From the NCBI GenBank assembly GCA_003058525.1, contig QBVD01000020.1, forward strand, positions 1 through 48,087: a stretch of DNA of 48,087 nt, in the 5' to 3' direction. Position 1 is the stretch's first letter. Each line of letters begins with the position of its first letter. The notes under the pieces were generated by a model that had not been told where the DNA came from, searched no databases, and was given only the letters and a program-made list of their open reading frames with translations. Made by a program: the position numbers and the translations under genes. Origin of the DNA: a gamma proteobacterium symbiont of Ctena orbiculata (GTDB lineage: Bacteria > Pseudomonadota > Gammaproteobacteria > Chromatiales > Chromatiaceae). Shown piece by piece: positions 1 through 16,026 of this stretch.

Positions 1-245
1 TCGACTCTGCTGGAGCTGTTTTTTTACCCAGCAAGGCAGAATGAGCGAGGTTTAGCCGTGCTAAATGAGCGAATGATAACGCCGCTGGGTGGAAAAACAG
101 CCCCAGCCCTTCGGGTTGTGCCTGAAAATGCGCCACTCGGCGTTGCTCGTCACTCATTTGGAATCACCAAACCTCACTCCTCGCGCCTTGATTGGCGCAT
201 TTTCAGACACAACAGAGCCGATTGGATTAGTGTTAACAGGCCCTA
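1..245 (+). mobile_element. MITE-like element, right part (copy A)
   Basis: This non-coding stretch matches the complete element at 33990-34286 in the same orientation. It shares the internal blocks CAGCAAGGCAGAATGAGCGA and CCCCAGCCCTTCGGG and the right terminal repeat ending GTTAACAGGCCCTAG at 231-245. The left end lies outside the window. No transposase is present, so it would depend on an enzyme supplied elsewhere. A 62-codon open frame inside it is a by-product of the repeat and not a gene. The element ends directly at the first codon of the truncated alkA remnant. Confidence 0.75.
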
Positions 246-629: not shown

Positions 630-655
630 GCGGACAGAATTAACTCGGTGAATCT

Positions 656-1012
656 CTACGATGAGTATACGAGCAACAAACCTATCGCCGCAGGAAGGGC
701 CTGAATCAACAGGATCTTTCTGCTGGCGGTTGTCGCACCGTAAACACCGGCAAGCAGCACACAGCTCAGAAAGAAGATCTTCACGCCCGTGCCATCCGCA
801 CCCAGGATAACCCCCCACAAGAGCCCGGCAGCCAGAAAGCCATTGTACAAGCCTTGGTTGGCCGCCAACACTCGCGTAATCGCCGCGGTCTCTCTGCTAT
901 GACCAAACACACGCATTCCCAACGGCTTGTCCCAAAGGAACATCTCCAGCACAAGAAAAGCGATGTGTTGGAGAGCGATCAGACCGACCACGATGTCTGC
1001 GATCACTGGCAC
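656..1012 (-). CDS. DUF1304 family small membrane protein
   Basis: The 118-residue protein has four hydrophobic segments (about residues 3-25, 51-71, 76-95 and 98-116) and matches the DUF1304 pattern: LQHIAFLVLEMFLW near the start, then ANQGLYNGFLAAGL. Members are inner-membrane proteins of unknown function. The gene is convergent with the alkA remnant, 26 bases away. The next gene on this strand, a flavin reductase at 1113, lies 100 bases upstream, so the two may be co-transcribed. Family assignment is from the motif pattern; the function is unknown. Confidence 0.8.
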   Translation of the reverse strand: MPVIADIVVGLIALQHIAFLVLEMFLWDKPLGMRVFGHSRETAAITRVLAANQGLYNGFLAAGLLWGVILGADGTGVKIFFLSCVLLAGVYGATTASRKILLIQALPAAIGLLLVYSS

Positions 1013-1112
1013 TCCTTATCTATGAATCCGTCTGGCAAGCTTTGCCATGATGCCCGTCATGCCTGGCAAAAGCATACACTGAATATCGAACATGGAATTA
1101 TAGCGTGGGCCT

Positions 1113-1694
1113 TTATTTGGCATTCAGTTTACCCACTGTATTCGCCAGCTTACGGCCAAGCGCCAAAACAGCTTCTTGTTTACGCTCGTCCACCAGCGAT
1201 CCATCATCATTGAAGGCCTTAAATGCCTGTGGAACGGTCTGCTGGTCAGGCAAAACCGTAACACCTATATTGGCGAGCAACATCCTTAAAAAAACCAATC
1301 CACGAAGCCCGCCCAAGGCCCCTGGAGATGCAGCCAGGATTACAGCCGTCTTACCTCGGAAAGCCACCAGCGGCGGCTCATCTTCGGATTCGGCACGGGA
1401 TGCCCAATCGATAACGTTCTTAAGCAATGGGCTGAACGCGCTGTTATATTCCGGAGACGCGATAATGAAGGCATCGTGATCCATCAGAAGTCTTTTAAGT
1501 TGAAGTGCATTCTCCGGAATCCCTTGTTCGCGCTCAAGATCCTGATTGAAGAGCGGCATCGGGAAATCCACCAAATCGATCCGCGTAACATCCGCCCCGG
1601 CCGCTTCGGCCCCCGCAGCGGCAATCGACAGGATCTTTTTATTGAAGGATCCATTCCTGCTGCTGCCTGCGAATGCGAGAATTCTTGGTGCCAT
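1113..1694 (-). CDS. NADPH-dependent FMN reductase family protein
   Basis: A flavodoxin-like reductase of about 193 residues, of the family that includes ChrR/YieF and azoreductases. The FMN phosphate loop is visible at the N-terminus (LAFAGSSRNGSFNKK) and the family motif SPEYNSAFSPLLKNVIDW in the middle, followed by GKTAVILAASPGALGG, which contacts flavin. Such enzymes reduce quinones, chromate or azo compounds with NAD(P)H; the substrate cannot be told here. I chose the ATG at 1694 because it has an AAGGGGGG ribosome site just upstream. A longer frame to 1721 adds nine residues that do not fit the fold. Confidence 0.85.
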   Translation of the reverse strand: MAPRILAFAGSSRNGSFNKKILSIAAAGAEAAGADVTRIDLVDFPMPLFNQDLEREQGIPENALQLKRLLMDHDAFIIASPEYNSAFSPLLKNVIDWASRAESEDEPPLVAFRGKTAVILAASPGALGGLRGLVFLRMLLANIGVTVLPDQQTVPQAFKAFNDDGSLVDERKQEAVLALGRKLANTVGKLNAK

Positions 1695-1982
1695 ATACCC
1701 CCCTTGGGAATGCCTGAGCATTTGTCTCCGGACTGGACCTGATGGAATCAGTGTAGCGCTACTTCTGCCTTCTGTAACCGCTCAACGACTGCTACGACAG
1801 CGAGGACCATGCCACGCACTGATTGCCGGCTGATTTTTCCTCTATTCATTTGATCCCTCAAATAGCCAATCCTTCATAATCCAATATGCTTAAGTGGTAA
1901 GCTGTGACGAAATTCGGCAGCCTCTACCCGGACCTGTCAACCGCCACCGAAAAACTTGCCTGCGCCATATGGACCTGCACAG

Positions 1983-3932
1983 ATGAAGCTACATTTCTCC
2001 GCAGAGCATCCGGAATCATTGTCCGAGCTGCTACTGGCCCGGGCACGACGGGTACTCCTGTACGGCCCACCCGGCATCGGTAAGAGCACGCTGGTAAAAG
2101 CCTTGGCGGGATCACTGCACAAGGCAGGCAGACCGGTCCACTGTCTCGCGGCGGACCCGGGGATGCCGGCATTCGGTATCCCGGGCGCGGTCAATCTGGG
2201 CCTATGGAAACAGGACGCATGGGAGGTTGTCGGTCGCGCGGCTGTCTGTAGTCTCGACGCCGCCCGTTTCCGCCTGCCACTGATCGAGGCCGCCGGTGAA
2301 TTGGCCAACCAGGTGGAAGGCGGCACACTGTTGCTCGACACACCCGGGGTTGTGCGGGGTGTGGCGGGGGCTGAACTCCTGACATCACTGGCACACCGTG
2401 CGGATGTGGATCTGGTGATGGTGTTGATGCGCGAGGGACAGCCACTCCACCTCAGTCAGGAACTGCGGGCGCTGGCCGCCGAGGTTGTGGCTGTCGAGGC
2501 TTCAGCGTCGGCGAGCCGGCCGGGAAAGGGCCTTCGCGACCGGCAGCGAACACGCCACTGGGACGACTATCTGTCCCATGCGAGCAAGGTGGATATCGAC
2601 TTGTCCGAAGTCGCTGTCCTGGGGACACCGCCCCGCCAGGCAACCGAAGCCTGGGTGGGCAAGCAGGTTGCGTTTCTCGATGGATCCCGCACTGTCGGTA
2701 TGGGTGAGGTGGTTGACATGGGAGAGGAGAGACTCCGGATCCTGCTACCCCCTGATAACAGGCGGACAGGGGTTATCTTGGTGCGCGATGCCGTCCGGGA
2801 CGAGTCGGGATTGCTGGTCACCGGCAAACGCTTTGCGGAAAGCGTGGTACGTTACCTCCCCCCCTCCGATCTGGTGCCCGACGACAAGCTGCCGCAGGAT
2901 ACCGGACCCCGGCCCATGGTTCAGACCCCGAGTGCTACCGCAGTCTTGATGAACGGTGTGTTCGGCGATCCACAACTCCATCTCCGCCTGGCACACCAGC
3001 GGCGCAGCCTGCTCTTCGACCTGGGCGACGGCGCACGGCTCCCGGCGCGGATCGCACACCAGGTCAGCGACGTCTTCATCAGCCACACCCATATGGACCA
3101 CATCTGCGGCTTTCTCTGGCTGCTGCGATCGCGTATCGGCGAATCGGCAAGATGCCGGCTGTATGGGCCTCCCGGCCTCGCTACGCAGATAGAGCATCTG
3201 ATCAACGGCATCCATTGGGACCGGATCGGTGATCGAGGCCCCAGATTCGAGGTCACTGAACTGCATGGCGAACAATTGATCCGCTTCAATCTGCAGGCTG
3301 GTTCGGCAGGCATTCGGCCAAACGGTGAGACTGTGATCAAGAATGGTATCCTAGTCGATGAGCCCGGATTTCACGTGCGCGCCGTCACCCTCGAGCACGG
3401 CATACCCGTCATCGCCTACGCCTTCGAACCTGTGCCGCAGATCAATGTGCTCGAGGAGAAACTCAGTGAACACGGACTGCAACCCGGTCCCTGGCTGACC
3501 AGGCTGAAGCAGCTGATGAATGAACAGCGGCTGGATGAGTATCTTTCCCTGCCGGATGGAACCAGCGAGACGGTTGGCGCCTTGGCCGCCACCCTCACCC
3601 TGACCACGCCCGGCAGCAAAATCGTCTATGCCACTGACCTGGCTGACACGCCCCATAACCGCGATCGACTCACCCTGTTGGCCAGGCAGGCACACACCCT
3701 GTTCTGCGAATCCCCATTCATGCAGAAGGATGCCACGCAGGCCCGACGCACCGGCCACCTGACCACCACCGCCTGCGCGGAGATCGCCAACAGCGCCGCT
3801 GTCCGCCACCTGATTCCGTTCCATTTCTCCCGCAGGTATGAGGGCACGTCATGGCAGGTGTATAACGAGATCGCGGCAAACTGCCCACATGTCGTGATAC
3901 CGGCCACGACAGACAGCGCAAACCATGAATGA
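1983..3932 (+). CDS. Clp1-like P-loop domain fused to RNase Z-type metallo-beta-lactamase
   Basis: A two-part protein of 649 residues. Residues 1 to about 310 look like a Clp1/Grc3 polynucleotide 5'-kinase: Walker A GPPGIGKST at 28-36, a Walker B-like LLLDTPGVV, and a following beta-rich region. From about residue 320 the sequence is an RNase Z-like hydrolase, with the metal motif HTHMDH at 368-373, a later Asp in YATDLAD, the GHLTTT segment and a final HFSRRY. Together these suggest RNA 3'-end cleavage and 5'-end phosphorylation in one chain. The RNA target is unknown. An in-frame TTG at 1956 would add nine residues; neither start has a strong ribosome site. Confidence 0.75.
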   Translation: MKLHFSAEHPESLSELLLARARRVLLYGPPGIGKSTLVKALAGSLHKAGRPVHCLAADPGMPAFGIPGAVNLGLWKQDAWEVVGRAAVCSLDAARFRLPLIEAAGELANQVEGGTLLLDTPGVVRGVAGAELLTSLAHRADVDLVMVLMREGQPLHLSQELRALAAEVVAVEASASASRPGKGLRDRQRTRHWDDYLSHASKVDIDLSEVAVLGTPPRQATEAWVGKQVAFLDGSRTVGMGEVVDMGEERLRILLPPDNRRTGVILVRDAVRDESGLLVTGKRFAESVVRYLPPSDLVPDDKLPQDTGPRPMVQTPSATAVLMNGVFGDPQLHLRLAHQRRSLLFDLGDGARLPARIAHQVSDVFISHTHMDHICGFLWLLRSRIGESARCRLYGPPGLATQIEHLINGIHWDRIGDRGPRFEVTELHGEQLIRFNLQAGSAGIRPNGETVIKNGILVDEPGFHVRAVTLEHGIPVIAYAFEPVPQINVLEEKLSEHGLQPGPWLTRLKQLMNEQRLDEYLSLPDGTSETVGALAATLTLTTPGSKIVYATDLADTPHNRDRLTLLARQAHTLFCESPFMQKDATQARRTGHLTTTACAEIANSAAVRHLIPFHFSRRYEGTSWQVYNEIAANCPHVVIPATTDSANHE

Positions 3933-3998
3933 TACTGCACAACTGAACCTTACCGTCACCTGGAATAGATCAGAGAAATCACCCGCGAGGATAAAGGA

Positions 3999-4178
3999 TT
4001 ACTTTCCTGTTCTATCCACCGGGCCGGGTTTGATCATTAATGCAAAAGGGATCGCAAGCGGACCGAAGGCCGCGCCCAGAACCGCCCACAATACCGGCCT
4101 GCCTCCACGCGATTTAGCGATCTGGTGACAAATAAATATGCTGGCGATATTTATTGCCAGTAAAACATAGATAGCCAT
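3999..4178 (-). CDS. 59-residue putative two-helix membrane protein
   Basis: A short minus-strand frame from ATG at 4178 to TAA at 3999. It encodes two hydrophobic stretches, residues 2-17 (AIYVLLAINIASIFIC) and about 29-49 (rich in Gly, Ala and Pro), separated by a basic loop KSRGGR, which is what a small double-spanning inner-membrane protein looks like. No homologous family is recognised and no good ribosome site is seen. A competing plus-strand frame at 3925-4128 has no such structure. The gene is convergent with the kinase/RNase Z fusion. Confidence 0.45.
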   Translation of the reverse strand: MAIYVLLAINIASIFICHQIAKSRGGRPVLWAVLGAAFGPLAIPFALMIKPGPVDRTGK

Positions 4179-4266
4179 TGTAATCTAAGTATGCAATTCG
4201 GATTGATCCCGCTGGCGATTGATTTCAGTTCATCATGTAAGAATCGAAGTTTTTTAAAAATAATCC

Positions 4267-4890
4267 CTAGTTGCTCGCTTCCCTGATAAAACGATAGTAG
4301 GTAAATTGCTGCGACTTGTTTGCCGGCGTTATATGCATCTCGTTTTTTTCTTCCACCAACTCGAACGCCACGCCCAACTCACGCTTTAGTTTTGATGCAT
4401 CATATTGCACGATATCCAAACCACTGCACTTTTTCGTACCCCCGATCGCAAACGCTGCGATAATCAGATGGCCTCCTGGTCTCAATGCCAGCTTCAACGC
4501 CTCCAAATAGGCATCCCTGTCCGATTTATCGGTCAAGAAGTGAAACACAGCCCGGTCATGCCAAAGCGAAAACAGGTGGGGTGATTTGAATTCTGTAATA
4601 TCGGATTCGAACCACTCGATTTCACCTGCCGCATCTCCCAGTCGCTGTTTAGCGACAGCCAGCGCCCTATCGGAGATATCCAATACAGCCAGGTTTGTAT
4701 AACCTTGCCTATACAGGTGATCGACCAGTACCGACGCACCACCCCCTACATCGATGATCGCCCCGTCCCTGGCAACCCGGCAGCGATGGATCAATTCCAA
4801 CGATAGCTTTGGTTCTGTCTGATACCAGCTGACTTCCGAGGGAGGTTTCTCCCGATATATTTTTTGCCAGTGCGTTTTTCTGTCAATCAC
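4267..4890 (-). CDS. class I SAM-dependent methyltransferase
   Basis: About 207 residues with a Rossmann-type methyltransferase core. Motif I reads IIDVGGGASVLVDHL, followed by the acidic end of strand 2 (LAVLDIS), motif III-like WFESDITEF, DRAVFHFL, and a late LRPGGHLIIAAFA. This arrangement is common in small-molecule methyltransferases of the thiopurine/tellurite-resistance type, but the substrate is unknown. I chose the GTG at 4890 because GGAGG lies upstream and the protein then begins MIDRKTHWQKIY, as homologous proteins do. A TTG at 4983 would add 31 low-complexity residues. Confidence 0.8.
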   Translation of the reverse strand: MIDRKTHWQKIYREKPPSEVSWYQTEPKLSLELIHRCRVARDGAIIDVGGGASVLVDHLYRQGYTNLAVLDISDRALAVAKQRLGDAAGEIEWFESDITEFKSPHLFSLWHDRAVFHFLTDKSDRDAYLEALKLALRPGGHLIIAAFAIGGTKKCSGLDIVQYDASKLKRELGVAFELVEEKNEMHITPANKSQQFTYYRFIREASN

Positions 4891-5107
4891 TTCAACCCGG
4901 CCTCCAATCAATGCCCTGGTCAACCCTCTGGAAGCGTCGTCTACACCGGGATCGGTTGACGAACTATAGGTGACCTGTCGCAACCCATTCCTCCGGGGTA
5001 ACTCAATGGTTCCTGGGGCTAATTACAGCTCCAGGTACGGGGCTTCAGATTAAAGTATAGAGCCAGACTGGCTTTTCCATTGGAGGTATCGGTTCAATCA
5101 GCGGTCG

Positions 5108-5211
5108 ATCAATAGCGAAACGACTGCAGCACTTCATATCCCAGTTCCGGTTTCCATCCCCAGGAATAGTTTCGCAGGTCATAGAGCGCCGCCCGTTCCG
5201 CTTCGGCGGCC
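5108..5211 (-). repeat. left direct repeat: orphan copy of the 3' end of the gene at 12018-12494
   Basis: These 104 bases match 12017-12120 in the same orientation with four mismatches by hand alignment. On the minus strand they contain the last 33 codons and the stop of the secreted-protein gene whose full copy lies beyond the CRISPR array. Homology begins one base past the stop codon and ends at the first base of the tracrRNA terminator region. No start codon or upstream part of the gene is present here, so it is a non-coding footprint. It marks the left border of the CRISPR-Cas cassette. Confidence 0.9.
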
Positions 5212-5242
5212 TAAAAATAAAGGCCGGGTAAAGACCCGGCCT
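5212..5242 (-). terminator. rho-independent terminator of tracrRNA
   Basis: The stem pairs 5221-5229 with 5234-5242 (GGCCGGGT/ACCCGGCC core, four-base loop). On the minus strand it is followed by TTTATTTTTA. It closes the tracrRNA and ends exactly at the border of the left direct repeat. Confidence 0.85.
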
Positions 5243-5310
5243 CTCATCTGTTGGCAATTCTGCCTTGTTAGTAGCCAAGAAACAGAACGCGATTTCCGAT
5301 TTGAAACTTA
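5212..5310 (-). ncRNA. tracrRNA of the type II-C CRISPR-Cas system
   Basis: On the plus strand 5287-5304 is an 18-base perfect match to positions 13-30 of the crRNA-sense repeat, so the minus strand carries the complementary anti-repeat. A second complementary block (5267-5275) pairs with the repeat's first eight bases with one bulged base, leaving an internal loop as in other tracrRNAs. Next comes a short hairpin GGCA/TGCC (5253-5264), then a GC-rich terminator (5221-5242) followed by a T-rich tail to 5212. The RNA is therefore about 95-100 nt, divergent from cas9. A weak TTGGAA-17-TAGTGT promoter candidate lies just upstream. The exact 5' end is inferred. Confidence 0.85.
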
Positions 5311-5327
5311 ACACTAACAAAGATCGT

Positions 5328-5333
5328 TTGACA
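5328..5333 (+). promoter_or_regulatory. candidate -35 box for cas9
   Basis: A perfect TTGACA lies 59 bases before the cas9 start. No convincing -10 hexamer is found at 16-18 bases from it, so the promoter call is weak. A GGGAG ribosome site precedes the cas9 ATG. Confidence 0.3.
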
Positions 5334-5391
5334 TTCCAAATACAAGACAGGACCCTTAGCCGGTGGAGAATAAAAAAAGGGAGTAATTACC

Positions 5392-8300
5392 ATGAAGTAT
5401 CGCCTCGGACTCGATATCGGCACTCACTCGATCGGCTGGGCGATCGTCGCACTGGATGATGCAAACCCACCCAAGCCGGCGTCGCTGGTACGGATCGGAT
5501 CGAGAGTTTTTCCCGACGGCCGTGATCCCCAATCCGGCGAATCCCTGGCGGTCAACCGGCGGGAGCCGCGTTCCCAGCGGCGCCGGCGCGATCGTTTTCT
5601 GCGCCGTCAGCAAGCCTTTCTCGACCATCTGATTCGTTACGGACTCTTACCGCAGGGGGAGAAAGCGCGTAAAGACCTGCAGCCGCGCGATCCCTACACT
5701 TTACGCAAAAAGGGCTTGGACGGCGCACTTTCACTCCATGAGTTCGGACGCGCCCTGTTCCACCTCAATCAACGGCGCGGCTTCAAGAGCAATCGCAAGG
5801 CGGACCGCAAAGCGGGGGAGTCGGGCAAGATCAAACAGGCCGCCGACCGCTTCGCCGCGGAGGAGCTCTCCCGCTACCGTACCGTGGGCGAGGCGCTCTA
5901 CCACCGCCTGGCGGAAGGCAAGGGCAGCCGCGCCCGGCTGCAGGGCAGCGGCGTCAAGGCGGCTTACGACTTCTATATCACCCGCGAGATGATCGGCGAC
6001 GAGTTCGACGCCCTCTGGGCGAAGCAGCGGAGCTACCATCCCGAACAACTGCACGACCAGGCCCGGGCGACGCTAAGGGATATCCTGCTCCGTCAGCGCC
6101 CCTTGAAATCCCCGCCCGTCGGTAAGTGCTGGCTGGAGCCGAGCGAGACCCGGGCGCCCCTGGCGCTGCCCTCGTCCCAGCGTTTCCGCCTCTACCAGGA
6201 GTTGAACCACCTGCGGTTGATCGACCTCTCCACCGGCGAGGAGCGCTCCTTGAGCCGCAGGGAGCGCGACGATCTGGCCACCTATCTCGCCAGCCGCGCA
6301 AAGGCCAAGTACCAGGCGCTCAGGCAGCACCTGTTCGGCAAAGAGAACCGGGATGCCTTTGTCTTCACCATCGAGCAGGGCGGTCTGCGCAAGGAGCTCT
6401 ACGGCGATACCAGCGCCCATCGTCTGGCCCACAAGAAAGGTTTCGGCAAAGCCTGGTTCGACCTGCCGCCGGCCGAGCAGGACGCCATTGTCGAACGGCT
6501 GCTGGAGACCGAAGAGGAAGCAGCGCTGACCGATTGGTTGAAACAACGCTACGGGCTCGATCAGGCAGCGGCAGACTATCTGGCCGGCGTCCCGCTGGAC
6601 GAAGGCCACCTGCGCTTCGGCCGCACGGCGATCGGCCGGGTCCTTCCCCATCTGATCGAAGGCTGGAACCAGGCGGAAGACCAGCCGTTGACTTACGACC
6701 AGGCGGTGAAGGCGGCGGGTTACGAGGACCACCGGGCAGCGGCGGGAAATGCGCTGCTGGAGCGACTCCCTTACTACGGGGAGATCCTCTGGCGCCATAC
6801 CCAGGAGATGCCCAACGCTACCGACCCGGACGAAAAGGAGTACGGCCGGATCACCAATCCCACCGTGCATATCGGCCTCAACCAACTGCGCAAGCTGGTC
6901 AACGCCGTCATCGACCGCTACGGTCCGCCGGCGCAGATCAGCGTGGAGCTGGCGCGTGAACTCAAACTCAGCCGTGAGCAGAAGCGGCGCGTCAACCGGG
7001 ATAACGTCGAAAACCGTGAACGCAACGAGCTGCTGAACAAAGAATTGATCGAAGAGTGGAAACAGCGTCCCACCGCCGCCAACCGTCTGCGCCTGCGCCT
7101 GTTCAAGGAGCTTGGCCCGCTTGCGCCGCGATGCCCCTACACCGGCGAACTGATCAAGCCGACCCTGCTCTTCAGCAACCACTATCAGGTCGACCATATC
7201 CTGCCCTTTTCAAAAACCCTGGACGACAGCTACAACAACAAGATCCTCGCCACCCGGGAGGGCAATGCGGCCAAAGGCAACCGGGACCCCTACAGCTACG
7301 CCGCCGAGACCCCCGGCGTGGACCGGGAGGCGATGCAGGCGCGGGCCGAGGCCCTGCCCTATGAAAAGCGCAAGCGCTTCAAGGAATCCGCCTACACCAA
7401 ATGGCTGGGGAACTTCGACGAGTTCGCAGGGGAGGACGGAAAAGGCTTTCTCGCCCGACAGCTCACCGACACCGCCTATCTCTCCCGTGTATCGCGCCAC
7501 TACCTGCAATCGGTCTGCGGACGGGTGGATGTCACCCCCGGCCGGTTGACCGCCCTGCTCCGGGGCAAGTGGGGCTTGAACGCCCTGCTGAATGAGGGGA
7601 ACCGGAAAAACCGGGATGACCATCGCCACCACGCCATCGACGCCGCCGTCGTGGCGGTCACCGACCGGGGTCTGCTGCAACGCATCGCCACCCGGGCGGG
7701 GCGGGCGGAATCCCGGGGCGACGAGCGGATCTTCGCCGACCTGGACCGGGAGATGCCCTGGCCCGACTTCCGCCAAGCACTGGAGAAGGCCCTGACCCGC
7801 TGCGTCGTCTCCCACAAACCGGACCACAACCCCCAGAGCCAGCTGCATGAAGAGACCGCCTACGGCATCGTCGACGGCCCCACCGACAAGGGCGTCTACA
7901 CGGCCCGCCATCGCGTTTCGCTCGCCAGCCTGAAGGGACCGAAGGACCTTGCCCTGCTGGAGAGCGCCCGGCTGGCGAGAAAGCTGGAAAAACAGCTGGC
8001 AGGACTCGACGGCAAGGCGTTTCAGGCGAGGCTGGCCGAGCTGCAGGGCCGCGAGGACTACCCCAACAAAGTCCGGCTGCTGCGCAAGATCTCCGGCGTC
8101 ACGGTGCCGCTGAGAGGCACCGCCATCAGCCCTGATCCCAGACGTAGGCCCGCCTACCCCGCCAAACTCTACAAAGGGGGCGCCAACTATTGCTACGAAC
8201 TCTTCGTCAACGAAAAGGGTCGTTGGGACGGCGCGTTGATCACCAGTTTTACCGCTAACCAACCCGCCTATCGGGCATTCATGGGAAGTGATAAACAGTT

Positions 8301-8592
8301 TCGGCAGGAGACGTTTAACGGCATGCCCCTGCTCATGCGGTTGATCCGTGACGACCTTATTGCTATTGAAGAAAGTCCCGGCAACAGGTGTATTATGCGA
8401 ATCGTTCTGTTGACTGAAGGCAAAGTAGTCATGGCAGAGCATTTTGAAGCCAATGCCGATGCCAGAAACCGCGACAAACAATCCCCATTCAAGTATTTGA
8501 CCAAATCGCCCGATAAATTACGTAAGCTCCGTGCCCGCCGGGTCTTCGTCGACCTGCTGGGGCGGGTGAAGGACCCCGGTTTCAAGGGGTGA
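5392..8592 (+). CDS. cas9: CRISPR-associated endonuclease Cas9, type II-C
   Basis: The 1066-residue protein has the size of compact type II-C Cas9 (the Neisseria enzyme is 1082). RuvC-I is GLDIGTHSIGW with Asp8, followed by an Arg-rich bridge helix (RREPRSQRRRRDRFLRRQ, about residues 56-73). RuvC-II is SVELAREL with Glu519, the HNH site is VDHILPFS with His602, and RuvC-III is HHAIDAAVVA with His747 and Asp750. All catalytic residues are present, so an active dual-strand nuclease guided by crRNA and tracrRNA is expected. The start has a GGGAG site 8 bases upstream. cas1 follows after 27 bases. Long minus-strand open frames inside it are shadows of GC-rich codon use. Confidence 0.97.
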   Translation: MKYRLGLDIGTHSIGWAIVALDDANPPKPASLVRIGSRVFPDGRDPQSGESLAVNRREPRSQRRRRDRFLRRQQAFLDHLIRYGLLPQGEKARKDLQPRDPYTLRKKGLDGALSLHEFGRALFHLNQRRGFKSNRKADRKAGESGKIKQAADRFAAEELSRYRTVGEALYHRLAEGKGSRARLQGSGVKAAYDFYITREMIGDEFDALWAKQRSYHPEQLHDQARATLRDILLRQRPLKSPPVGKCWLEPSETRAPLALPSSQRFRLYQELNHLRLIDLSTGEERSLSRRERDDLATYLASRAKAKYQALRQHLFGKENRDAFVFTIEQGGLRKELYGDTSAHRLAHKKGFGKAWFDLPPAEQDAIVERLLETEEEAALTDWLKQRYGLDQAAADYLAGVPLDEGHLRFGRTAIGRVLPHLIEGWNQAEDQPLTYDQAVKAAGYEDHRAAAGNALLERLPYYGEILWRHTQEMPNATDPDEKEYGRITNPTVHIGLNQLRKLVNAVIDRYGPPAQISVELARELKLSREQKRRVNRDNVENRERNELLNKELIEEWKQRPTAANRLRLRLFKELGPLAPRCPYTGELIKPTLLFSNHYQVDHILPFSKTLDDSYNNKILATREGNAAKGNRDPYSYAAETPGVDREAMQARAEALPYEKRKRFKESAYTKWLGNFDEFAGEDGKGFLARQLTDTAYLSRVSRHYLQSVCGRVDVTPGRLTALLRGKWGLNALLNEGNRKNRDDHRHHAIDAAVVAVTDRGLLQRIATRAGRAESRGDERIFADLDREMPWPDFRQALEKALTRCVVSHKPDHNPQSQLHEETAYGIVDGPTDKGVYTARHRVSLASLKGPKDLALLESARLARKLEKQLAGLDGKAFQARLAELQGREDYPNKVRLLRKISGVTVPLRGTAISPDPRRRPAYPAKLYKGGANYCYELFVNEKGRWDGALITSFTANQPAYRAFMGSDKQFRQETFNGMPLLMRLIRDDLIAIEESPGNRCIMRIVLLTEGKVVMAEHFEANADARNRDKQSPFKYLTKSPDKLRKLRARRVFVDLLGRVKDPGFKG

Positions 8593-8619
8593 GACCGATG
8601 ACGGATAGAGGAAAGTCCG

Positions 8620-9540
8620 ATGCCCGGACGCATCATCGAGATCGGCGAGAGCAACCGCTATCTCTCGCTCAAGCGCGGCTTCATGGTGATCAGCCACCGT
8701 GGTGGGGAACTTGCTCGGGTGCCGTTGGACGACCTGGCGGCGGTGATTGCCTCGGGCCACGGCACCACCCACTCAAGCAACCTGCTCGCCGCCCTGGCCG
8801 AACGGGGGGTGCCCTTCGTGCTCTGCGCCGGCAACCATCTGCCGGTGGGTATGCTGCTGTCGGTGGACGGGCACTTTCAACAGGCCAAGCGCATCGACGC
8901 CCAACTGACCAGCCGACGCCCCCAACGTAAAAGACTCTGGCAGACCCTGGTCAGGGCCAAGCTGCAGATGCAGGCGGCAGCGCTGCGATCACTTGGTCGA
9001 CCCCATGCGCCGCTGAGCGCCCTGGCAATCAAGGTGCGCTCCGGCGACCCAGAGAATGTCGAGGCCCAGGGCGCGCGGCGTTACTGGAACCTGCTCTTCG
9101 GCAATGAATTCCGGCGCGATCGCAACGGCGAAGATCACAACCGGCTGCTCAACTACGGCTATACCGTCCTGCGCTCCGCCGTCGCCCGAAGCGTCATCGC
9201 CGCCGGGCTCCATCCCAGCCTGGGGCTACATCACCACAACAGCTACAACGCCATGCGCCTGGTGGACGACCTGATGGAACCCTTCCGCCCACTGGTCGAT
9301 CTGCGGGTTCACGCTCTGGTGCAGGCTGAGCGGCTCACACTCGACACCCAGGACAAGGGGCAGCTTGCGCGCCTGCTCTTCCACGACCTGGAAACCGCGG
9401 CAGGCACCACCCCGGTGATCAGCTGTCTGCAGCGGCTGGCCGTCTCCCTGGCGCAACACTATCTGGGGGAGTGCCGTACCCTCGACCTGCCGCTGCTGAA
9501 GCCGCTGCCGGACCTCACGGTCTTCGCGCGACTCCCATGA
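8620..9540 (+). CDS. cas1: CRISPR-associated endonuclease Cas1
   Basis: The 306-residue integrase subunit inserts new spacers together with Cas2. The metal-binding residues of the family are visible: Glu148 in VEAQGARRYW, the histidine cluster 204-206 in GLHHHN, and the acidic pair in LVDDLMEPF. The N-terminal beta domain begins RIIEIGESNRYLSLKRG, typical of type II Cas1. It follows cas9 by 27 bases and its stop overlaps the cas2 start (ATGA at 9537-9540), so cas9-cas1-cas2 form one operon. No cas4 or csn2 is present, which defines subtype II-C. Confidence 0.97.
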   Translation: MPGRIIEIGESNRYLSLKRGFMVISHRGGELARVPLDDLAAVIASGHGTTHSSNLLAALAERGVPFVLCAGNHLPVGMLLSVDGHFQQAKRIDAQLTSRRPQRKRLWQTLVRAKLQMQAAALRSLGRPHAPLSALAIKVRSGDPENVEAQGARRYWNLLFGNEFRRDRNGEDHNRLLNYGYTVLRSAVARSVIAAGLHPSLGLHHHNSYNAMRLVDDLMEPFRPLVDLRVHALVQAERLTLDTQDKGQLARLLFHDLETAAGTTPVISCLQRLAVSLAQHYLGECRTLDLPLLKPLPDLTVFARLP

Positions 9541-9866
9541 GCCAGCTCTCGGCATACCGGCTTATGTGGCTCATGACCCTGTTCGATCTGCCGGTGACGA
9601 CAAAGGCCGAACGCAAGGCGGCTACCGGGTTTCGTCATTTTCTGCTCGACCAGGGCTTCGAAATGGCGCAATATTCCGTCTATATGCGCCTCTGTTCGGG
9701 CAAGGAGCAGGCGGAAACCTACTGCCGGCGGATCCGGGAAAACATGCCGGACGGCGGGCGCATCGACATCATCACCATCACAGACAAACAGTATGAGAAT
9801 ATCGTCAGTTTCGTCGGCAAGGTCAGGCAGACGCGGAAAAATCCGGAACAATATTCGCTCTTCTGA
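9537..9866 (+). CDS. cas2: CRISPR-associated protein Cas2
   Basis: The 109-residue ferredoxin-like protein has the Cas2 signature MTLFDLPV with the conserved Asp17 at the end of the first strand, the central YSVYMRLC strand, and a late RIDIITITDKQY strand. It forms the dimeric core of the Cas1-Cas2 integrase. I chose the ATG at 9537, which overlaps the cas1 stop. An upstream in-frame start at 9471 would add 22 unrelated residues inside cas1. The CRISPR array begins 71 bases downstream. Confidence 0.95.
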   Translation: MSQLSAYRLMWLMTLFDLPVTTKAERKAATGFRHFLLDQGFEMAQYSVYMRLCSGKEQAETYCRRIRENMPDGGRIDIITITDKQYENIVSFVGKVRQTRKNPEQYSLF

Positions 9867-9937
9867 TCAAACCGGACTGTTTTTTCCTGACCGGAAAACG
9901 GAAAATCCCGGTAAAGACCGGGAGTTGCGTGAATTGG
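9867..9937. other. putative CRISPR leader between cas2 and array
   Basis: This is a 71-base non-coding stretch next to the first, perfect repeat. The far end of the array has decayed repeats, so new spacers probably enter here. It holds the minus-strand terminator hairpin. Confidence 0.5.
9896..9922 (-). terminator. hairpin terminator for minus-strand array transcripts
   Basis: The inverted repeat CCCGGT (9907-9912) / ACCGGG (9917-9922) with a four-base loop is followed on the minus strand by ATTTTCCGTTTTCC. The stem and its loop resemble the tracrRNA terminator (GGGTCTTTACCC there, CGGTCTTTACCG here). Its T-rich side is right only for transcription coming out of the array on the minus strand. 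Confidence 0.6.
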
Positions 9938-11622
9938 AGTCTATCAAATCGGAAATCGCGTACCAGCTACAACTATGCAATGGCTAACTTATTTGTTTTG
10001 GACAGTCTATCAAATCGGAAATCGCGTACCAGCTACAACCAATCCCGAATAACCCATCAGTCCACATATAGTCTATCAAATCGGAAATCGCGTACCAGCT
10101 ACAACTGTAAGGCTGTGTCTATGGGGATTTGCTTCAGTCTATCAAATCGGAAATCGCGTACCAGCTACAACGAAACAGTCTTCAAAAACCCCGAGTTTGG
10201 TAGTCTATCAAATCGGAAATCGCGTACCAGCTACAACTCGAAATAACACGCCAGCAGTGAGCCTTTCAGTCTATCAAATCGGAAATCGCGTACCAGCTAC
10301 AACACCAATGCAGTTGCCCATCTAATAATAGTAAGTCTATCAAATCGGAAATCGCGTACCAGCTACAACTAAACATAGCTTTAGCATAAACAAGCTCAGA
10401 GTCTATCAAATCGGAAATCGCGTACCAGCTACAACGCAGGCGCGCTTTGCGATATCCGATCCAATAGTCTATCAAATCGGAAATCGCGTACCAGCTACAA
10501 CTGTGTAGCCTTTGCCTATGGTCGCCCCGTAAGTCTATCAAATCGGAAATCGCGTACCAGCTACAACAGGGCAACATCTCGATCGACGAAAGTGAGGAGT
10601 CTATCAAATCGGAAATCGCGTACCAGCTACAACTATCGGACCCATCACGCCCCTCACAAAGTCAGTCTATCAAATCGGAAATCGCGTACCAGCTACAACG
10701 TAACCGGCTGTGACGGTTGGTATGACCTGAGTCTATCAAATCGGAAATCGCGTACCAGCTACAACATATAAGATATACATCTATGAGGAACCAAAGTCTA
10801 TCAAATCGGAAATCGCGTACCAGCTACAACAGGTATTTGTGTTGGTGGTGTGACGTTAAAAGTCTATCAAATCGGAAATCGCGTACCAGCTACAACGAAA
10901 TAACTGACGCATACTGGCTGAATGACAGTCTATCAAATCGGAAATCGCGTACCAGCTACAACAGGACAAACCCAGGGGTTCCAGCAGCCCGCAGTCTATC
11001 AAATCGGAAATCGCGTACCAGCTACAACATAATGATTGTGGTTGGCTATATGAGGTAAAGTCTATCAAATCGGAAATCGCGTACCAGCTACAACAATCTC
11101 TCAATGCGCCTTGTAGATAAATACAGTCTATCAAATCGGAAATCGCGTACCAGCTACAACGAAAGCAAGGAAATACTGGTAACTAATATAAGTCTATCAA
11201 ATCGGAAATCGCGTACCAGCTACAACTGGTAGCAGCGTCGAGCTGTCCAGAGATACAGTCTATCAAATCGGAAATCGCGTACCAGCTACAACAGCTGTGG
11301 GGTGAAACCGATCAGGACGATGAGTCTATCAAATCGGAAATCGCGTACCAGCTACAACATCAAGCGGGCGCATGAGCGAATAACCAAGAGTCTATCAAAT
11401 CGGAAATCGCGTACCAGCTACAACTGAAATGCGCCTGCACTGAATTGCATAGCGAGTCTATCAAATCGGAAATCGCGTACCAGCTACAACTCAACAGCTA
11501 ATTTCAAAGACCCGCATTCCAGTCTATCAAATCGGAAATCGCGTATCAGCTACAACCTGGTGTGTGGTGGGTATGGTTAAGATCTAAGTCTATCAAATGG
11601 GAAATCGTATACCTAGTCTCTC
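9938..11622 (-). CRISPR. type II-C CRISPR array, 26 repeats / 25 spacers
   Basis: Repeats of 36 bases start at 9938 and recur every 66 bases. Spacers are 30 bases, except one of 29 before the repeat at 10795. Repeats 1-24 look identical, repeat 25 (11521) has one change, and repeat 26 (11587) is degenerate and breaks down after about 24 bases. Read on the minus strand the repeat begins GTTGTAGC, as in Neisseria II-C repeats, and ends TGATAGACT, an extended -10 element next to each spacer. The decayed end is distal to cas2. Spacer targets cannot be named without a search. Confidence 0.98.
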
Positions 11623-11770
11623 ACTATCCCATACCTCATTAAATAATTGGCAATCCTGCTTTAACACGCTACGCTATGCCGGTCCGCGGGACGTCGTTCA
11701 AGACAACGGATTTTTCAGGGCCTGCGGCAAAGGAAAACATCTTGGACCGATTCAAGGAGTAGTAGTTATC

Positions 11771-11935
11771 ATGTCTCAAAATTTAATCTCCGCGGAGTTT
11801 ACTACGGAAGAGCAGGCTGCCGCGCTTGCCGCCATACAGCAAATCCAGTCACTGCCCTTTCTCATCGGGCTCAGTAACGGTGAAAAACGCAAACTCAACA
11901 AGATGGGCGTTCTCGTGAACCTTAGCGATGATTGA
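11771..11935 (+). pseudogene. short ORF, probable truncated conserved protein
   Basis: A 54-codon frame with a good ribosome site (AAGGAGTAG, ATG at 11771). The product, beginning MSQNLISAEFTTEEQAAALA and containing LPFLIGLSNGEKRKLNKMG, resembles from memory the N-terminus of a longer conserved bacterial family (about 180 residues). Here it ends soon after the KMG motif. No continuation is obvious in the 80 bases that remain before the direct repeat. I infer a remnant cut off at the cassette border, but a genuine small protein cannot be excluded. It is the only gene between the array and the right direct repeat. Confidence 0.5.
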
Positions 11936-12016
11936 TGAATGACAGGACAGACTGAACTGATGATTATCGGACAGGTAGTTCACACCCTGCCGTGACTCGA
12001 ATCGACGCGTTCACGC

Positions 12017-12120
12017 ATCAATAGCGAAACGACTGCAGCACTTCATATCCCAGTTCCGGTTTCCAGCCCCAGGAGTAGTTGCGCAGATCATAGAGCGCCG
12101 CCCGTTCCGCTTCGGCGGCC
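12017..12120 (-). repeat. right direct repeat flanking the CRISPR-Cas cassette
   Basis: This is the in-gene copy of the 104-base repeat found at 5108-5211. It is the 3' end of the secreted-protein gene and continues into the rest of that gene, so this is the ancestral copy. Recombination between the two copies would remove 6909 bases, including tracrRNA, cas genes and array, and leave the gene whole. Confidence 0.9.
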
Positions 12121-12494
12121 GAGCGCGGGCTGTAGCCGCAGCCGTAGCTGGTGCGGGTGCGCCCCGTCATTGTGGTATAGGTGGTCTTGACTATGACCAT
12201 GTGGGCATGGCGCAATCCGATACCGGCCTGGGCGTGAACGTCTTGCCCTTTCTTGCGGTAACCCTGTTCGATCAGCTTCTGTTTGGCCTTGTGGATGGCC
12301 GACTCGACGCTCTCGTCCGGAGCGGCCACCCATTCGATGGCCAGGGAGTTGCCGAGACGCTTTGCCACGGCACAGCCGGCGCCCGCCATGGCGTCATCTG
12401 CCCAAATCAGCGTCATCAGTGTAAGCAGGAACAGGGTGAAAGCACTTCGTTCAACTGCCGGTCTGCATCGATTCCAGTGTTTCCCAACGCTCAT
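12018..12494 (-). CDS. hypothetical secreted protein
   Basis: 158 residues starting at the ATG at 12494. The N-terminus has a signal-peptide pattern: a basic segment with KHWNRC and VERS, a hydrophobic stretch AFTLFLLTLMTLIWA, then ADDAMA as a likely cleavage site near residue 37. The mature part has an alpha segment (ESAIHKAKQKLIEQGYRKK) and a Cys/Gly/Tyr-rich strand with SYGCGYS. No family is recognised. The start overlaps the end of uup by 44 bases, so the two are probably co-transcribed. Its last 103 bases are duplicated at the left border of the CRISPR-Cas cassette. Confidence 0.7.
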   Translation of the reverse strand: MSVGKHWNRCRPAVERSAFTLFLLTLMTLIWADDAMAGAGCAVAKRLGNSLAIEWVAAPDESVESAIHKAKQKLIEQGYRKKGQDVHAQAGIGLRHAHMVIVKTTYTTMTGRTRTSYGCGYSPRSAAEAERAALYDLRNYSWGWKPELGYEVLQSFRY

Positions 12495-14352
12495 AGGCCT
12501 GATCCAGTTCCAGTTGCACCGCGGACATCTGCTGCTGAAGCTCTGCGACCAGTTCCCCCTGGGTGCGATAGAGGTCCGGATCGCCCAGCCTGGTCTGTAA
12601 CTCGTCGAGCCGCACTTCAAGTACTTCAATCCTCCGAGGCAGCGCATCGAGCTCCCGCTGGTCTTTGTAACTCAGCTTCTCACTCTTCTTTTTCGGCCTC
12701 TCCGGAACAGACTTGACCCCGGCCCCGCCCTTTGGTTTCGACTCCACTGATTGCCTGGCTCGGGCATGCGCCTCCCAGTCACTGAAACCACCGACATATT
12801 CCGCCACCCTGCCTTCACCTTCGAAGACCAGGCAGCTGGTCACCGCATTGTCCAGAAACTCCCGGTCGTGACTGACCAGCAGCAGGGTTCCCGGGTAGTC
12901 GGAGAGCAACTCCTCAAGCAACTCCAGCGTCTCCACATCCAGATCGTTGGTCGGCTCGTCGAGCACCAGCACATTGGCCGGCCTGGTAAACAGCTTGGCC
13001 AGCAACAGACGGTTGCGCTCACCGCCGGAGAGCGCCTTCACAGGGCTTCTGGCACGTTCCGGGGTAAACAGGAAATCCTGCAGGTAACCGATGATGTGCT
13101 TGCTTTTTCCGCCGACATCCACCTTGTCGCTGCCGCCCCCCACATTATCCTGTACCGAACTTTCCTCATCGAGCTGACCGCGCAGCTGGTCGAAATAGGC
13201 CACCTGCAGCTGGGTGCCGAGTTTGACCCTGCCCGTATCGGGCCGCAGTTCTCCCAGCAGCAGGTTCAACAGGGTTGTCTTGCCGCAGCCGTTGGGGCCG
13301 ATGATACCCACCCGGTCACCGCGCAGGATGGTGGTGGAGAGATCCCGCACCACCGGTTTCTCCTCCCAGGCGTAACCGATATCCTCGACCTCCACGACCA
13401 GCTTACCTGAACGCTCTCCCGCATCGATCCGCATCTTTACCCTGCCCTGCTGATCGCGCCGCTTCTGCCGTGCCTCACGCATTGCCTTAAGCGTCCTGAC
13501 CCGACCCTCGTTGCGGGTGCGCCGCGCCTTGATACCCTGACGAATCCAGACCTCTTCCTGGGCAAGCCGTTTGTCAAAACGCTGATTAGCCTGTTCTTCC
13601 GCATTCAACAGTTCCTGCTTGCGGCGTAAAAAATTGGCATAGTCACCCGGCCAGTCGGTCAAGCTGCCGCGATCCAGTTCCAGAATCCGGCTCGCGATCC
13701 GACGCAGGAAGGCCCTATCATGGGTGACGAAGAGGATTGCACCCGGATAACCGAGAAGAAATTCCTCCAGCCATCGGATGGCCTCGATATCGAGGTGGTT
13801 GGTGGGTTCATCGAGGAGCAGCAACTCAGGCTCCATCACCAGGGCCTGGGCCAGCAAGACACGCCTCTTCAGGCCTCCCGACAGCGCACTGAACCGGGTA
13901 TCGGCATCCAGACCGATCCTGGATATGACTGTCTCCACCCGTTGCTCCAGTTGCCAGCCCTCAACGGCCTCGAGTTCATGCTGCGCCTTCGACAGCGATG
14001 ACAACAGGCTGTCATCGCCCGTCTCCGCAAGCTGATGGCTTATTTTGTGGTAAGCCTTGATCTTGTCGGCAAGTTGACCGACGCCGTCCGCCACCACATC
14101 GAAGACACTCCCCTCGACCTTATCCGGCACCTCCTGGATCAGATGCGCAATCCTTGTCCCGCTGCTCACGACACGCTCCCCGTCGTCCGGGACGATACCA
14201 CCTTGAATCACTCGCATCAGGGTTGACTTGCCGGCCCCGTTACGGCCGAGCAGCGCAATCCTCTCCCCCTTCTCGATGTTGAGGTCGATGTCATCCAGTA
14301 ACGGCCGATCGCCATAGCTGAGCTGCAGCCTGCGCAGGGTTATCAGCGGCAT
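12451..14352 (-). CDS. uup: ABC-F family ATPase Uup
   Basis: The 633-residue soluble protein has two ATP-binding cassettes and no membrane segment. The first has Walker A GRNGAGKST and signature ALSGGLKRR; the second has Walker A GPNGCGKTT and signature ALSGGERNR; each is followed by a LLLDEPTNHLD- or VLDEPTNDLD-type Walker B. A charged linker (about 510-560) leads to a C-terminal coiled coil (LDALPRRIEVLEVRLDELQ). Length and layout match E. coli Uup (635), which binds DNA and ribosomes and affects transposon excision. The secreted-protein gene overlaps its 3' end. It is divergent from trpB2. Confidence 0.93.
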   Translation of the reverse strand: MPLITLRRLQLSYGDRPLLDDIDLNIEKGERIALLGRNGAGKSTLMRVIQGGIVPDDGERVVSSGTRIAHLIQEVPDKVEGSVFDVVADGVGQLADKIKAYHKISHQLAETGDDSLLSSLSKAQHELEAVEGWQLEQRVETVISRIGLDADTRFSALSGGLKRRVLLAQALVMEPELLLLDEPTNHLDIEAIRWLEEFLLGYPGAILFVTHDRAFLRRIASRILELDRGSLTDWPGDYANFLRRKQELLNAEEQANQRFDKRLAQEEVWIRQGIKARRTRNEGRVRTLKAMREARQKRRDQQGRVKMRIDAGERSGKLVVEVEDIGYAWEEKPVVRDLSTTILRGDRVGIIGPNGCGKTTLLNLLLGELRPDTGRVKLGTQLQVAYFDQLRGQLDEESSVQDNVGGGSDKVDVGGKSKHIIGYLQDFLFTPERARSPVKALSGGERNRLLLAKLFTRPANVLVLDEPTNDLDVETLELLEELLSDYPGTLLLVSHDREFLDNAVTSCLVFEGEGRVAEYVGGFSDWEAHARARQSVESKPKGGAGVKSVPERPKKKSEKLSYKDQRELDALPRRIEVLEVRLDELQTRLGDPDLYRTQGELVAELQQQMSAVQLELDQAYERWETLESMQTGS

Positions 14353-14465
14353 CGAAGAACCCGGGTGAATTCATTCATGACATATCTCAATTAAAAAGCT
14401 TCATCCTACGCTGATCCAATCTGCTCTGCTGGTAAAAAACCAATCGTTATGTGATTATCGCCATG

Positions 14466-14489
14466 TTAGGGCACGTTAACAGACCCTAA
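14466..14489. repeat. mini-palindrome related to the MITE ends (copy F)
   Basis: The imperfect palindrome TTAGGGCACG...AGACCCTAA looks like the two outer ends of the CTAG-ended element joined with almost nothing between. It lies in the uup-trpB2 divergent spacer. It could be a deletion or excision footprint. Confidence 0.45.
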
Positions 14490-14507
14490 TAAATCGGTAG
14501 TTTCATT

Positions 14508-14534
14508 TATATCCTGCTTCGTTACCAGGATATA
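14508..14534. promoter_or_regulatory. inverted repeat in the uup-trpB2 spacer
   Basis: TATATCCTG (14508-14516) and CAGGATATA (14526-14534) form a perfect 9-base inverted repeat around 9 bases, about 97 bases upstream of trpB2. It may be an operator or a terminator-like hairpin. No regulator can be assigned. Confidence 0.35.
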
Positions 14535-14630
14535 TAAAAACACCCATTCCAATCCAACAAGATCTGCATCATGGACGGGCTATCAAATCACTATTTGGGA
14601 CTCGGGCCAAGTAGCGGGAGACGATAACTT

Positions 14631-15980
14631 ATGAAGACCAAGATTCTGCTGAAAGAGGCAGATATGCCGACCCATTGGTATAACATCGTGGCTGATATGC
14701 CCAATCCACCGGCGCCAATCCTTGCCCCCGACGGCTCTCCGGTAACTCCGGATGCGCTCAGCGCAATTTTTCCTGACGCCATTATCGAACAGGAGGTGAG
14801 CGCACAACGTTGGATCCCTATTCCCGATGAGGTCCGTGAAGTGCTGCGTCTGTGGCGGCCATCCCCCCTATATCGCGCAGAACGTTTGGAAATGGCGCTC
14901 AAGACACCCGCCAAGATCTACTTCAAGAATGAAGCAGTCAGCCCGGCGGGATCGCACAAACCGAATACCGCGGTCGCGCAAGCCTATTACAACAAAATGC
15001 AGGGCATCAAACGACTCGCCACCGAAACGGGGGCGGGGCAATGGGGCTGTTCCCTGGCCCTTGCCGGGCAACTGTTCGATTTGGAAGTCAGGGTCTATAT
15101 GGTCAAGGTCAGTTATCAACAAAAACCCTATCGTCGCTCGATGATGGAGACATGGGGCGCCGAGGTCTTTCCGAGTCCTACAGACATGACCCAGTCGGGC
15201 CGTCATATCCTGCAACAGGATGCCGACTCTCCCGGGTCATTGGGTATCGCCATCTCCGAAGCGGTAGAGGAGGCTGCCGGCCGGCCGGATACCAACTACG
15301 CCCTGGGTTCGGTGCTCAATCATGTATTGCTGCACCAGACCATTATCGGCGAAGAGGCGAAAAAGCAGCTAGAGCTTGTCGGGGACTACCCCGATGCGAT
15401 CTACGCTCCCTGCGGAGGGGGCTCGAACTTCGGCGGGATCGCCTTCCCGTTCTTTGCCGACAAGGCGGCAGGCAGGGAGATCGATCTGGTCGCCGTTGAA
15501 CCGACCTCATGCCCCACATTGACCAAAGGGGTATACGCCTACGATTACGGCGATACGGAGGGCCTCACGCCTTTGACGAAGATGTATACGCTGGGCCACG
15601 ATTTCATGCCACCCGGCATCCATGCCGGCGGTCTACGCTATCACGGCGATTCGGCGCTCGTCAGCCAGCTCTACAACGAAGGGCTATTGAGCGCAGTGGC
15701 CATCCCCCAACTGGAGACTTTCGAAGCCGGCGAACTCTTTGCCAAGACCCAAGGCATCATTCCCGCGCCTGAGTCCTGTCATGCGGTTGCCGCCACCGTT
15801 CGGGAGGCGAGACGTTGCGCCGAAACGGGTGAGGCGAAGACCCTGCTCTTCAACCTGTCCGGTCATGGACATTTCGATATGAGTTCCTATGACCGCTACT
15901 TCAAAGGAGAACTGGAAGACTTCGACTACCCGGACGATGCGATTCGGGCATCACTCAGCCATTTGCCGAAGGTGGGTTGA
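14631..15980 (+). CDS. trpB2: TrpB-like pyridoxal-phosphate enzyme (TrpB2 type)
   Basis: 449 residues. The long N-terminal extension (MPTHWYNIVADMP...) and the PLP-lysine motif SPAGSHKPNTA (Lys110) are typical of the TrpB2 branch of tryptophan synthase beta chains. The phosphate-binding loop CGGGSNFGG and the C-terminal FNLSGHGHFD are also present. TrpB catalyses condensation of indole with serine. TrpB2 forms usually work without stable TrpA, and no trpA is nearby, so indole salvage is a plausible role. The gene is single. It converges with a response-regulator gene across a hairpin at 15994-16026. Confidence 0.9.
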   Translation: MKTKILLKEADMPTHWYNIVADMPNPPAPILAPDGSPVTPDALSAIFPDAIIEQEVSAQRWIPIPDEVREVLRLWRPSPLYRAERLEMALKTPAKIYFKNEAVSPAGSHKPNTAVAQAYYNKMQGIKRLATETGAGQWGCSLALAGQLFDLEVRVYMVKVSYQQKPYRRSMMETWGAEVFPSPTDMTQSGRHILQQDADSPGSLGIAISEAVEEAAGRPDTNYALGSVLNHVLLHQTIIGEEAKKQLELVGDYPDAIYAPCGGGSNFGGIAFPFFADKAAGREIDLVAVEPTSCPTLTKGVYAYDYGDTEGLTPLTKMYTLGHDFMPPGIHAGGLRYHGDSALVSQLYNEGLLSAVAIPQLETFEAGELFAKTQGIIPAPESCHAVAATVREARRCAETGEAKTLLFNLSGHGHFDMSSYDRYFKGELEDFDYPDDAIRASLSHLPKVG

Positions 15981-15993
15981 ACGGCGTTTGAGA

Positions 15994-16026
15994 GCCTGGG
16001 ATTTACGCCCGCTGTGACTCCCAGGC
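15994..16026. terminator. hairpin between converging trpB2 and response-regulator genes
   Basis: GCCTGGGA (15994-16001) pairs with TCCCAGGC (16019-16026). There is no T run, and the 3' arm lies inside the end of the minus-strand gene, so a terminator role is only suggested by its convergent position. Confidence 0.3.

Follow-up and report, generated by a model that had tools for sequence, protein, structure and literature searches.

A type II-C CRISPR-Cas cassette, free of a detectable integrase, between two copies of a gene end in a Chromatiaceae symbiont of Ctena orbiculata

We found that the type II-C CRISPR-Cas locus of the symbiont genome analyzed here (G000) is enclosed by two direct copies of the 3' end of one host gene and carries no detectable integrase gene, and we regard this cassette as a real integrase-free CRISPR islet. 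Base comparisons with relatives show, at the sequence level, that the native end of the gene was displaced to the left border of the cassette and that a foreign allele now completes the gene. Coordinates refer to the window, i.e., the whole stretch of DNA analyzed (48,087 nucleotides), and the features are collected in Table 1.

The cassette and its flanking repeats

Alignment of the two repeat copies yielded 104 bp on the same strand with 4 mismatches, i.e., exactly 100/104 identical bases at an offset of 6909, in agreement with the approximate count that the initial annotation had made by hand. The identical runs between the copies are 49, 8, 5, 5, and 33 bp long, and the segment that the copies enclose measures 6805 bp. 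Similarity stops at the ends of the 104 bp, and no third copy was found in the whole G000 genome (4.74 Mb, 112 contigs, E ≤ 0.001). The right copy consists of the final 103 bases, including the stop codon, of a 158-amino-acid (aa) open reading frame (ORF) plus one base, whereas the gene body is absent at the left copy. The left boundary falls directly after the tracrRNA terminator, whose hairpin is followed by a T-run that ends at the repeat; both the coincidence of this boundary with the terminator and the start of homology one base past the stop codon, as proposed earlier, hold.

Table 1. Features of the cassette and its surroundings (window coordinates)
Feature	Position	Strand	Evidence or remark
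Methyltransferase gene, immediate downstream neighbor of the host gene at cassette-free sites	4267..4983	-	Adjacency in G009, G020, G015, G019, and G005; in G056 by collinearity
Left repeat copy, now an orphan, once the native 3' end of the secreted-looking gene	5108..5211	-	103/104 vs the single copy of G056; joined to native downstream DNA
tracrRNA region (limits by eye)	5212..5310	-	Anti-repeat at ~5285-5310; hairpin and T-run of the terminator extend to the repeat boundary; sequence and fold
cas9, 1066 aa	5392..8592	+	TIGR01865, E=6.8e-179; HNH_4 and RuvC_III
cas1, type II (NMENI) family	8620..9540	+	TIGR03639, E=1.8e-70
cas2 (start codon uncertain, first in-frame ATG at 9537)	9534..9866	+	TIGR01573, E=4.3e-17
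CRISPR array, 25 repeats of 35 bp and 24 distinct spacers of 30-31 bp	9939..11556	.	Repeat/spacer count
Truncated 5' gene fragment (leader and ~46 codons)	11663..11909	+	Family in five other genus genomes; DNA 83% identical to G013
Joining DNA from the fragment to the rebuilt gene end (~107 bases)	11910..12016	.	11900-12016 matches nothing in 21 other genus genomes
Right repeat copy, foreign 3' end now completing the gene	12017..12120	-	100/104 vs G056, 101/104 vs G009
Host gene, 158-aa ORF, secreted by appearance	12018..12494	-	No Pfam or NCBIfam match
uup (ABC-F ATPase), upstream neighbor of the host gene	12451..14352	-	NF050005, E=2.3e-271

The locus was assigned to type II-C since it encodes a Cas9 with HNH and RuvC domains, a type II Cas1, and Cas2, without a fourth adaptation gene (csn2/cas4), and possesses an array along with a tracrRNA whose anti-repeat was called by eye. 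The tracrRNA itself, likewise recognized by eye, gave no Rfam match at the gathering threshold, and the 126-nucleotide (nt) fold has a z score of −4.2; tRNA and Rfam scans of the window returned no matches. There is no ORF of at least 70 aa between cas2 and the array, and a further degenerate array repeat starts at about position 11588. The GC content of cas9 is 63% versus 56% in the flanks, with a mean of 57% for the whole segment. In line with the earlier statement that no integrase lies inside, none was found among the ORFs of the segment: the scan covered cas9, cas1, cas2, and the small ORF, and the other ORFs, which overlap these or the array, were judged by eye. A search for Cas9 relatives in viral contigs was without result, the array had no match in phages, and the spacers matched the fetched loci three times, over 15 to 16 bases each.

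The initial annotation listed tracrRNA, cas9, cas1, cas2, the array, and one small ORF as the entire content of the segment. All of these components are present, but the small ORF is a truncated fragment of a longer gene, and unmatched DNA follows it (Table 1). Its family occurs in five other genus genomes at 72 to 93% identity across 34 to 47 residues and is longer in these relatives, being cut off here at about position 11909; the fragment is the only copy in G000. The small ORF was accordingly rejected as a CRISPR accessory gene.

The host gene, which overlaps the end of uup, was matched in 22 of 22 genus genomes, including G000 (the match in G008 is partial and lies at a contig end). Downstream of it is a variable junction with at least five different contents in the genus; the next genes across the genus include the methyltransferase, a lysylphosphatidylglycerol-synthase-like gene, a citrate-transporter-like gene, a short-chain dehydrogenase gene, and others. 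The contigs of G018, G007, G010, and G014 end 0.6 to 1.4 kb downstream of the host gene, which hints at repeats or mobile DNA there. Elsewhere in the window, a stretch of about 250 bp is repeated 34 kb apart (1-246 and 34015-34286, 81 to 92% identical in three pieces), with an inverted arm at 33990-34023; it looks like a dispersed intergenic repeat.

Empty sites in relatives and the origin of the two gene ends

The site without the cassette is seen in G056, a conspecific of G000 whose genome is assembled in one contig, which gave no match to cas9 and has a single copy of the gene end. Window positions 244-5211 are 98.7% identical and positions 12017-17060 are 97.3% identical to G056, and the two flank alignments overlap on G056 by exactly 104 bases, the empty site. 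The sister species G009 is empty as well, its flanks meeting with a 102-base overlap of two blastn pieces. Relatives with a single intact copy and without the CRISPR locus, the check that the initial annotation had suggested, are thus available within the species and outside it. They bear out the proposed integration at the 3' end of a gene that rebuilt the gene.

No second match to the host gene was present in any of the 21 other genus genomes (in G008, the gene is incomplete and lies at the end of a contig). An orphan copy in CRISPR-free relatives, which the initial annotation had named as a refuting result, was thus not encountered. Likewise, cas9 had no match in 20 of these 21 genomes; in the exception, G017, both cas9 matches lie on contigs other than that of the host gene. 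A possible donor, i.e., a genome with CRISPR at the host gene, was seen in 0 of the 21. The simplest reading of these data is one insertion in the G000 lineage. As a separate observation, contig C31 of G017 (L082) carries broken cas9 remains at 9978-10716, 64 to 79% identical to the cassette cas9, and beside them a single sequence like the repeat of the cassette array (9925-9967), and a distant second cas9 of G017 lies on C98.

To assign the two gene ends, we compared each of them with the relatives. The left copy differs from G056 at 1 of 104 positions and the right copy at 4, whereas relative to G009 the numbers are 7 and 3, respectively. The four mismatches between the copies span 12066-12087. 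The left copy agrees with G056 at three of them, and the fourth shows three different bases in the left copy, the right copy, and G056; the right copy is identical to G009 at each of the four. Furthermore, the left copy is joined to native downstream DNA, and the right copy is joined to the native gene body. Since the left copy is closer to G056 and adjoins native downstream DNA, these sequence comparisons show it to be the native gene end, displaced to the left, and the gene to be completed by another allele that is associated with the 6805-bp segment. The minimum extent of the foreign allele is the part of the gene end that bears the four differences. The initial annotation had taken the right copy for the natural end of the gene and the left one for an orphan; the left copy is indeed an orphan, but the orphan is the native end and the right copy is the foreign one.

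All four differences between the copies fall on third codon positions and are synonymous, for which the chance is about 0.006, given that 27% of random changes would be silent, and the host protein of G000 is identical to that of G056. Because all four are silent, both alleles most likely diverged inside working genes.

Possible routes of insertion

The best explanation for the cassette appears to be recombination anchored in the host gene, to which we assign a probability of about 0.45, with a slight lean over an insertion of the integrase type. The donor DNA would be chromosomal and would come from a close relative in which a CRISPR locus already followed the host gene. The incoming DNA would have recombined by homology inside the host gene, and its other end would have been attached immediately upstream of the native gene end with no long stretch of homology, either through homology-facilitated illegitimate recombination or through single-crossover insertion of a circular form. 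No component of the segment would need mobility of its own.

A foreign tract that passes the repeat into the gene would fit a run of nine consecutive differences between G000 and G056, from 12066 to 12623, at which G000 has the G009 base. This run is weakly suggestive, its end having been chosen where it breaks and the run not being clearly beyond chance. In the right flank beyond the repeat, G000 agrees with G009 at 30 sites, the opposite is true at 16, and neither applies at 2; the corresponding numbers for the left flank are 6, 10, and 1. In addition, G056-private changes in four later blocks are at least as numerous as those in the block adjoining the repeat, and the five differences of the run that lie past the repeat may simply be mutations of G056. 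Recombination is further favored by the empty sites of G056 and G009, the base pattern of the two copies and their silent differences, the GC content of cas9, the lack of an integrase among the ORFs of the segment, and the variable junction downstream of the host gene without gene-end duplication in the 20 other genus genomes tested. Also in its favor, at five other loci the type II-C unit has no neighbors in common with the cassette except for an ATPase-domain similarity of about 28% (ORFs of at least 90 aa). What argues against recombination is that the end of homology one base past the stop codon would be a coincidence here, whereas an element specialized for gene ends would be expected to show it. 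The missing donor, with CRISPR at the host gene in 0 of the 21 other genus genomes, and the insert size and deletions usual for known homology-facilitated illegitimate events (see below) also weigh against it.

Such an element, a genomic island or a cis-mobilizable element, is a serious candidate with somewhat better than one chance in three: a tyrosine recombinase would have used the 3' end of the gene as its attachment site, the 104-bp copy carried by the element would have restored the gene, and the integrase gene would later have been deleted or would act from elsewhere. Integrase islands typically show a repeat of such length, a restored frame, silent differences, and a boundary just past the stop codon, all of which are found here. 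The cassette further resembles islands in having direct repeats at both ends with a single copy at the empty site and in lying at a gene 3' end that is restored by an element-borne end. All four differences are located on the element side of the 33-bp identical run that forms the 5' edge of the repeat, where a crossover would be expected. Next to the rebuilt gene, the array side of the segment is disrupted, as seen in the truncated fragment, and an integrase could have been lost there. However, the integrase gene expected inside an island was not found in the segment, and duplication of the gene end at the host gene was absent from all 20 other genus genomes tested (four with less than 1.4 kb of downstream sequence). 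No integrase was present among 20 ORFs picked downstream of the host gene in relatives, where one weak Y1_Tnp match stayed below the cutoff. Moreover, the host gene had no match in phage, plasmid, and viral-contig collections, and a search for the pattern of its end in viral contigs gave none either.

It is improbable that the insertion predates the split of G000 and G056 and that G056 is an excision product that kept the bases of the orphan. Exact excision via the 33-bp stretch would give the repeat sequence of G056 apart from one base, but a gain and a loss are needed versus one gain, and G009 and 18 of the 19 other genus genomes searched are without a cas9 match, the cas9 of G017 not being on the contig of its host gene.

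Duplication in place (through slippage or as a target-site duplication), with the orphan drifting afterwards, is very improbable. The repeat itself would fit this scenario and nothing further does: the orphan and G056 share three bases unlike the present gene and unlike G009, all four differences are synonymous, and repeated reversions in the gene would be required. A transposon target-site duplication was rejected, for the orphan carries G056 bases and 104 bp is far beyond the length of such duplications. The least probable account is an assembly or binning artifact: G000 is a 112-contig draft, but both flanks are adjacent and collinear in the one-contig conspecific G056, the longest exact run common to the copies is only 49 bp, and the listed contamination of G000 is 0.08%, so that an assembly error behind the repeat pair is unlikely.

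Under the preferred recombination within the gene, later recombination between the two copies could remove CRISPR-Cas, the gene staying intact and its protein sequence unchanged. Such excision by homologous recombination appears plausible because the copies contain identical runs of 49 and 33 bp and differ only synonymously.

Other Cas9 loci and known mobile CRISPR systems

We surveyed 49 loci with Cas9 or its remains, including this cassette (790,811 bases), and, as controls, 32 loci without Cas9 (537,784 bases), 21 of them at the same host gene. A weak match in G037 was omitted, as were L083-L085 and L114, whose regions entered the set as other fetched loci. Same-strand repeats of at least 40 bases lying more than 4 kb apart were detected at 5 of the 49 loci, this one included, versus 0 of the 32 controls (Fisher one-sided p = 0.074), and at 4 of 48 when the cassette was left out (p = 0.12); flanking repeats cannot be seen at five of the 49 loci, which are shorter than 5.3 kb, or at several others, where the unit lies at the end of a contig. 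At 1 to 4 kb, repeats occurred at L118, L123, L162, L164, and L179 among the 49 and at L029, L040, and L045 among the controls. Gene-end repeats at other Cas9 loci are not significantly above the controls, and their recurrence is not shown. A permissive search beside the unit (48 loci, both strands, all distances above 300 bases) gave matches for 27 of 79 pieces versus 9 of 96 random control pieces; most matches were weak and some were on the opposite strand, the controls came largely from other taxa and included coding DNA, and we attach little weight to the excess.

Individual loci provided leads only. At L115 (G204:C22:1500-21400), a 97-bp gene end (836-932/13265-13361) encloses CRISPR, and its copies have 7 coding differences, all nonsynonymous, with a stop in the orphan, which marks the duplication as old or decayed. 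A second repeat at L115, a 128-bp ubiB-like end on the cas9-start side (11671-11798/15961-16088), has a partner that does not enclose CRISPR. At L118, an 87-bp phosphorylase gene end lies on the cas9-start side, and a HipA-like gene, not CRISPR, is located between the copies. At L160 (G555:C81:13300-33200), a whole small secreted-looking gene is present twice (4381-4803 and 12003-12482, 73% alike), flanking a type II-C unit whose Cas9 is 57% identical to that of the cassette. The gene-end copies examined at these loci are 73 to 91% identical, i.e., more diverged than those described here. Finally, 51-bp intergenic repeats, 94% alike, directly flank an array-cas9 unit at L178 (G882:C1:550000-569900; 7177-7227 and 11762-11812), in which the cas1 and cas2 of the cassette had no tblastn match.

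Type II-C loci of the same bacterial family, in G027, G555, and G436, encode Cas9 proteins 57 to 59% identical to that of the cassette and possess cas9, cas1, and cas2, with an array seen in G027 and G555. They reside at other genomic places than the cassette. A comparable gene-end repeat is absent from G027 and G436, and in G555 the unit is flanked by the two whole gene copies of L160.

Cis-mobilizable elements (CIMEs) derive from integrative and conjugative elements (ICEs) and are flanked by attL and attR without an integrase of their own. The cassette resembles them in its attL/attR-like repeats and the lack of its own integrase; unlike for CIMEs, no integrase-bearing element sharing the 104-bp ends was found at the site in the genus (20 downstream ORFs scanned, the contigs of 4 genomes ending within 1.4 kb).

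In Vibrionaceae, according to the available part of one report, CRISPR-Cas occurs on genomic islands, namely, VPI-6, GI-24, and type II-B islands at tRNA genes; such islands bear attL/attR and an integrase, and others are Tn7-like (PMC6360697). The same part reports excision of VPI-6 and an excision assay for GI-24 (PMC6360697). As with these islands, which are bounded by att sites, the CRISPR-Cas segment of G000 is missing from related strains, and a prophage-borne CRISPR case described there has a 156-bp direct repeat at its ends (PMC6360697). The integrase islands and the prophage for which the available part gives sizes measure 25 to 63 kb (PMC6360697), whereas the cassette, with 6.8 kb, is almost only CRISPR-Cas and has no recombinase that we found.

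Homology-facilitated illegitimate recombination, described in naturally competent bacteria, resembles the present case in having homology on one side and a nonhomologous join on the other (PMC3240628, as far as available). The events in that text usually insert about 1 kb and delete about 1 kb of recipient DNA (PMC3240628), in contrast to a 6.8-kb cassette with a duplicated gene end. Duplications bordered by repeats are stated to arise after transformation in the accessible part of another paper (PMC3784515), and the available excerpt on a type II-C locus in Macrococcus mentions no such repeats (PMC6008420). Among titles and the starts of abstracts in the open-access literature, no recombinase-free type II-C locus between gene-end duplications was found, which is weak evidence of novelty, and a query on recombination hotspots in the same literature was without match.

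A general scheme could be imagined in which type II-C units that lack a recombinase of their own move repeatedly between genomes by inserting at the 3' ends of ordinary genes. Each transfer would bring a gene end, the old end would stay as a scar by the tracrRNA, and the resulting repeats would allow scarless later loss. We consider this scheme improbable.

The movement and loss of compact recombinase-free CRISPR loci between strains have mostly been inferred from phylogeny. In the cassette described here, the empty site, the native end, the incoming end, and both junctions are all readable, so that the typing of conspecific strains can test gain, its direction, and possible loss. An exit of the cassette via its flanking repeats, if it can occur, would provide a simple route to an on/off polymorphism of immunity within the species.
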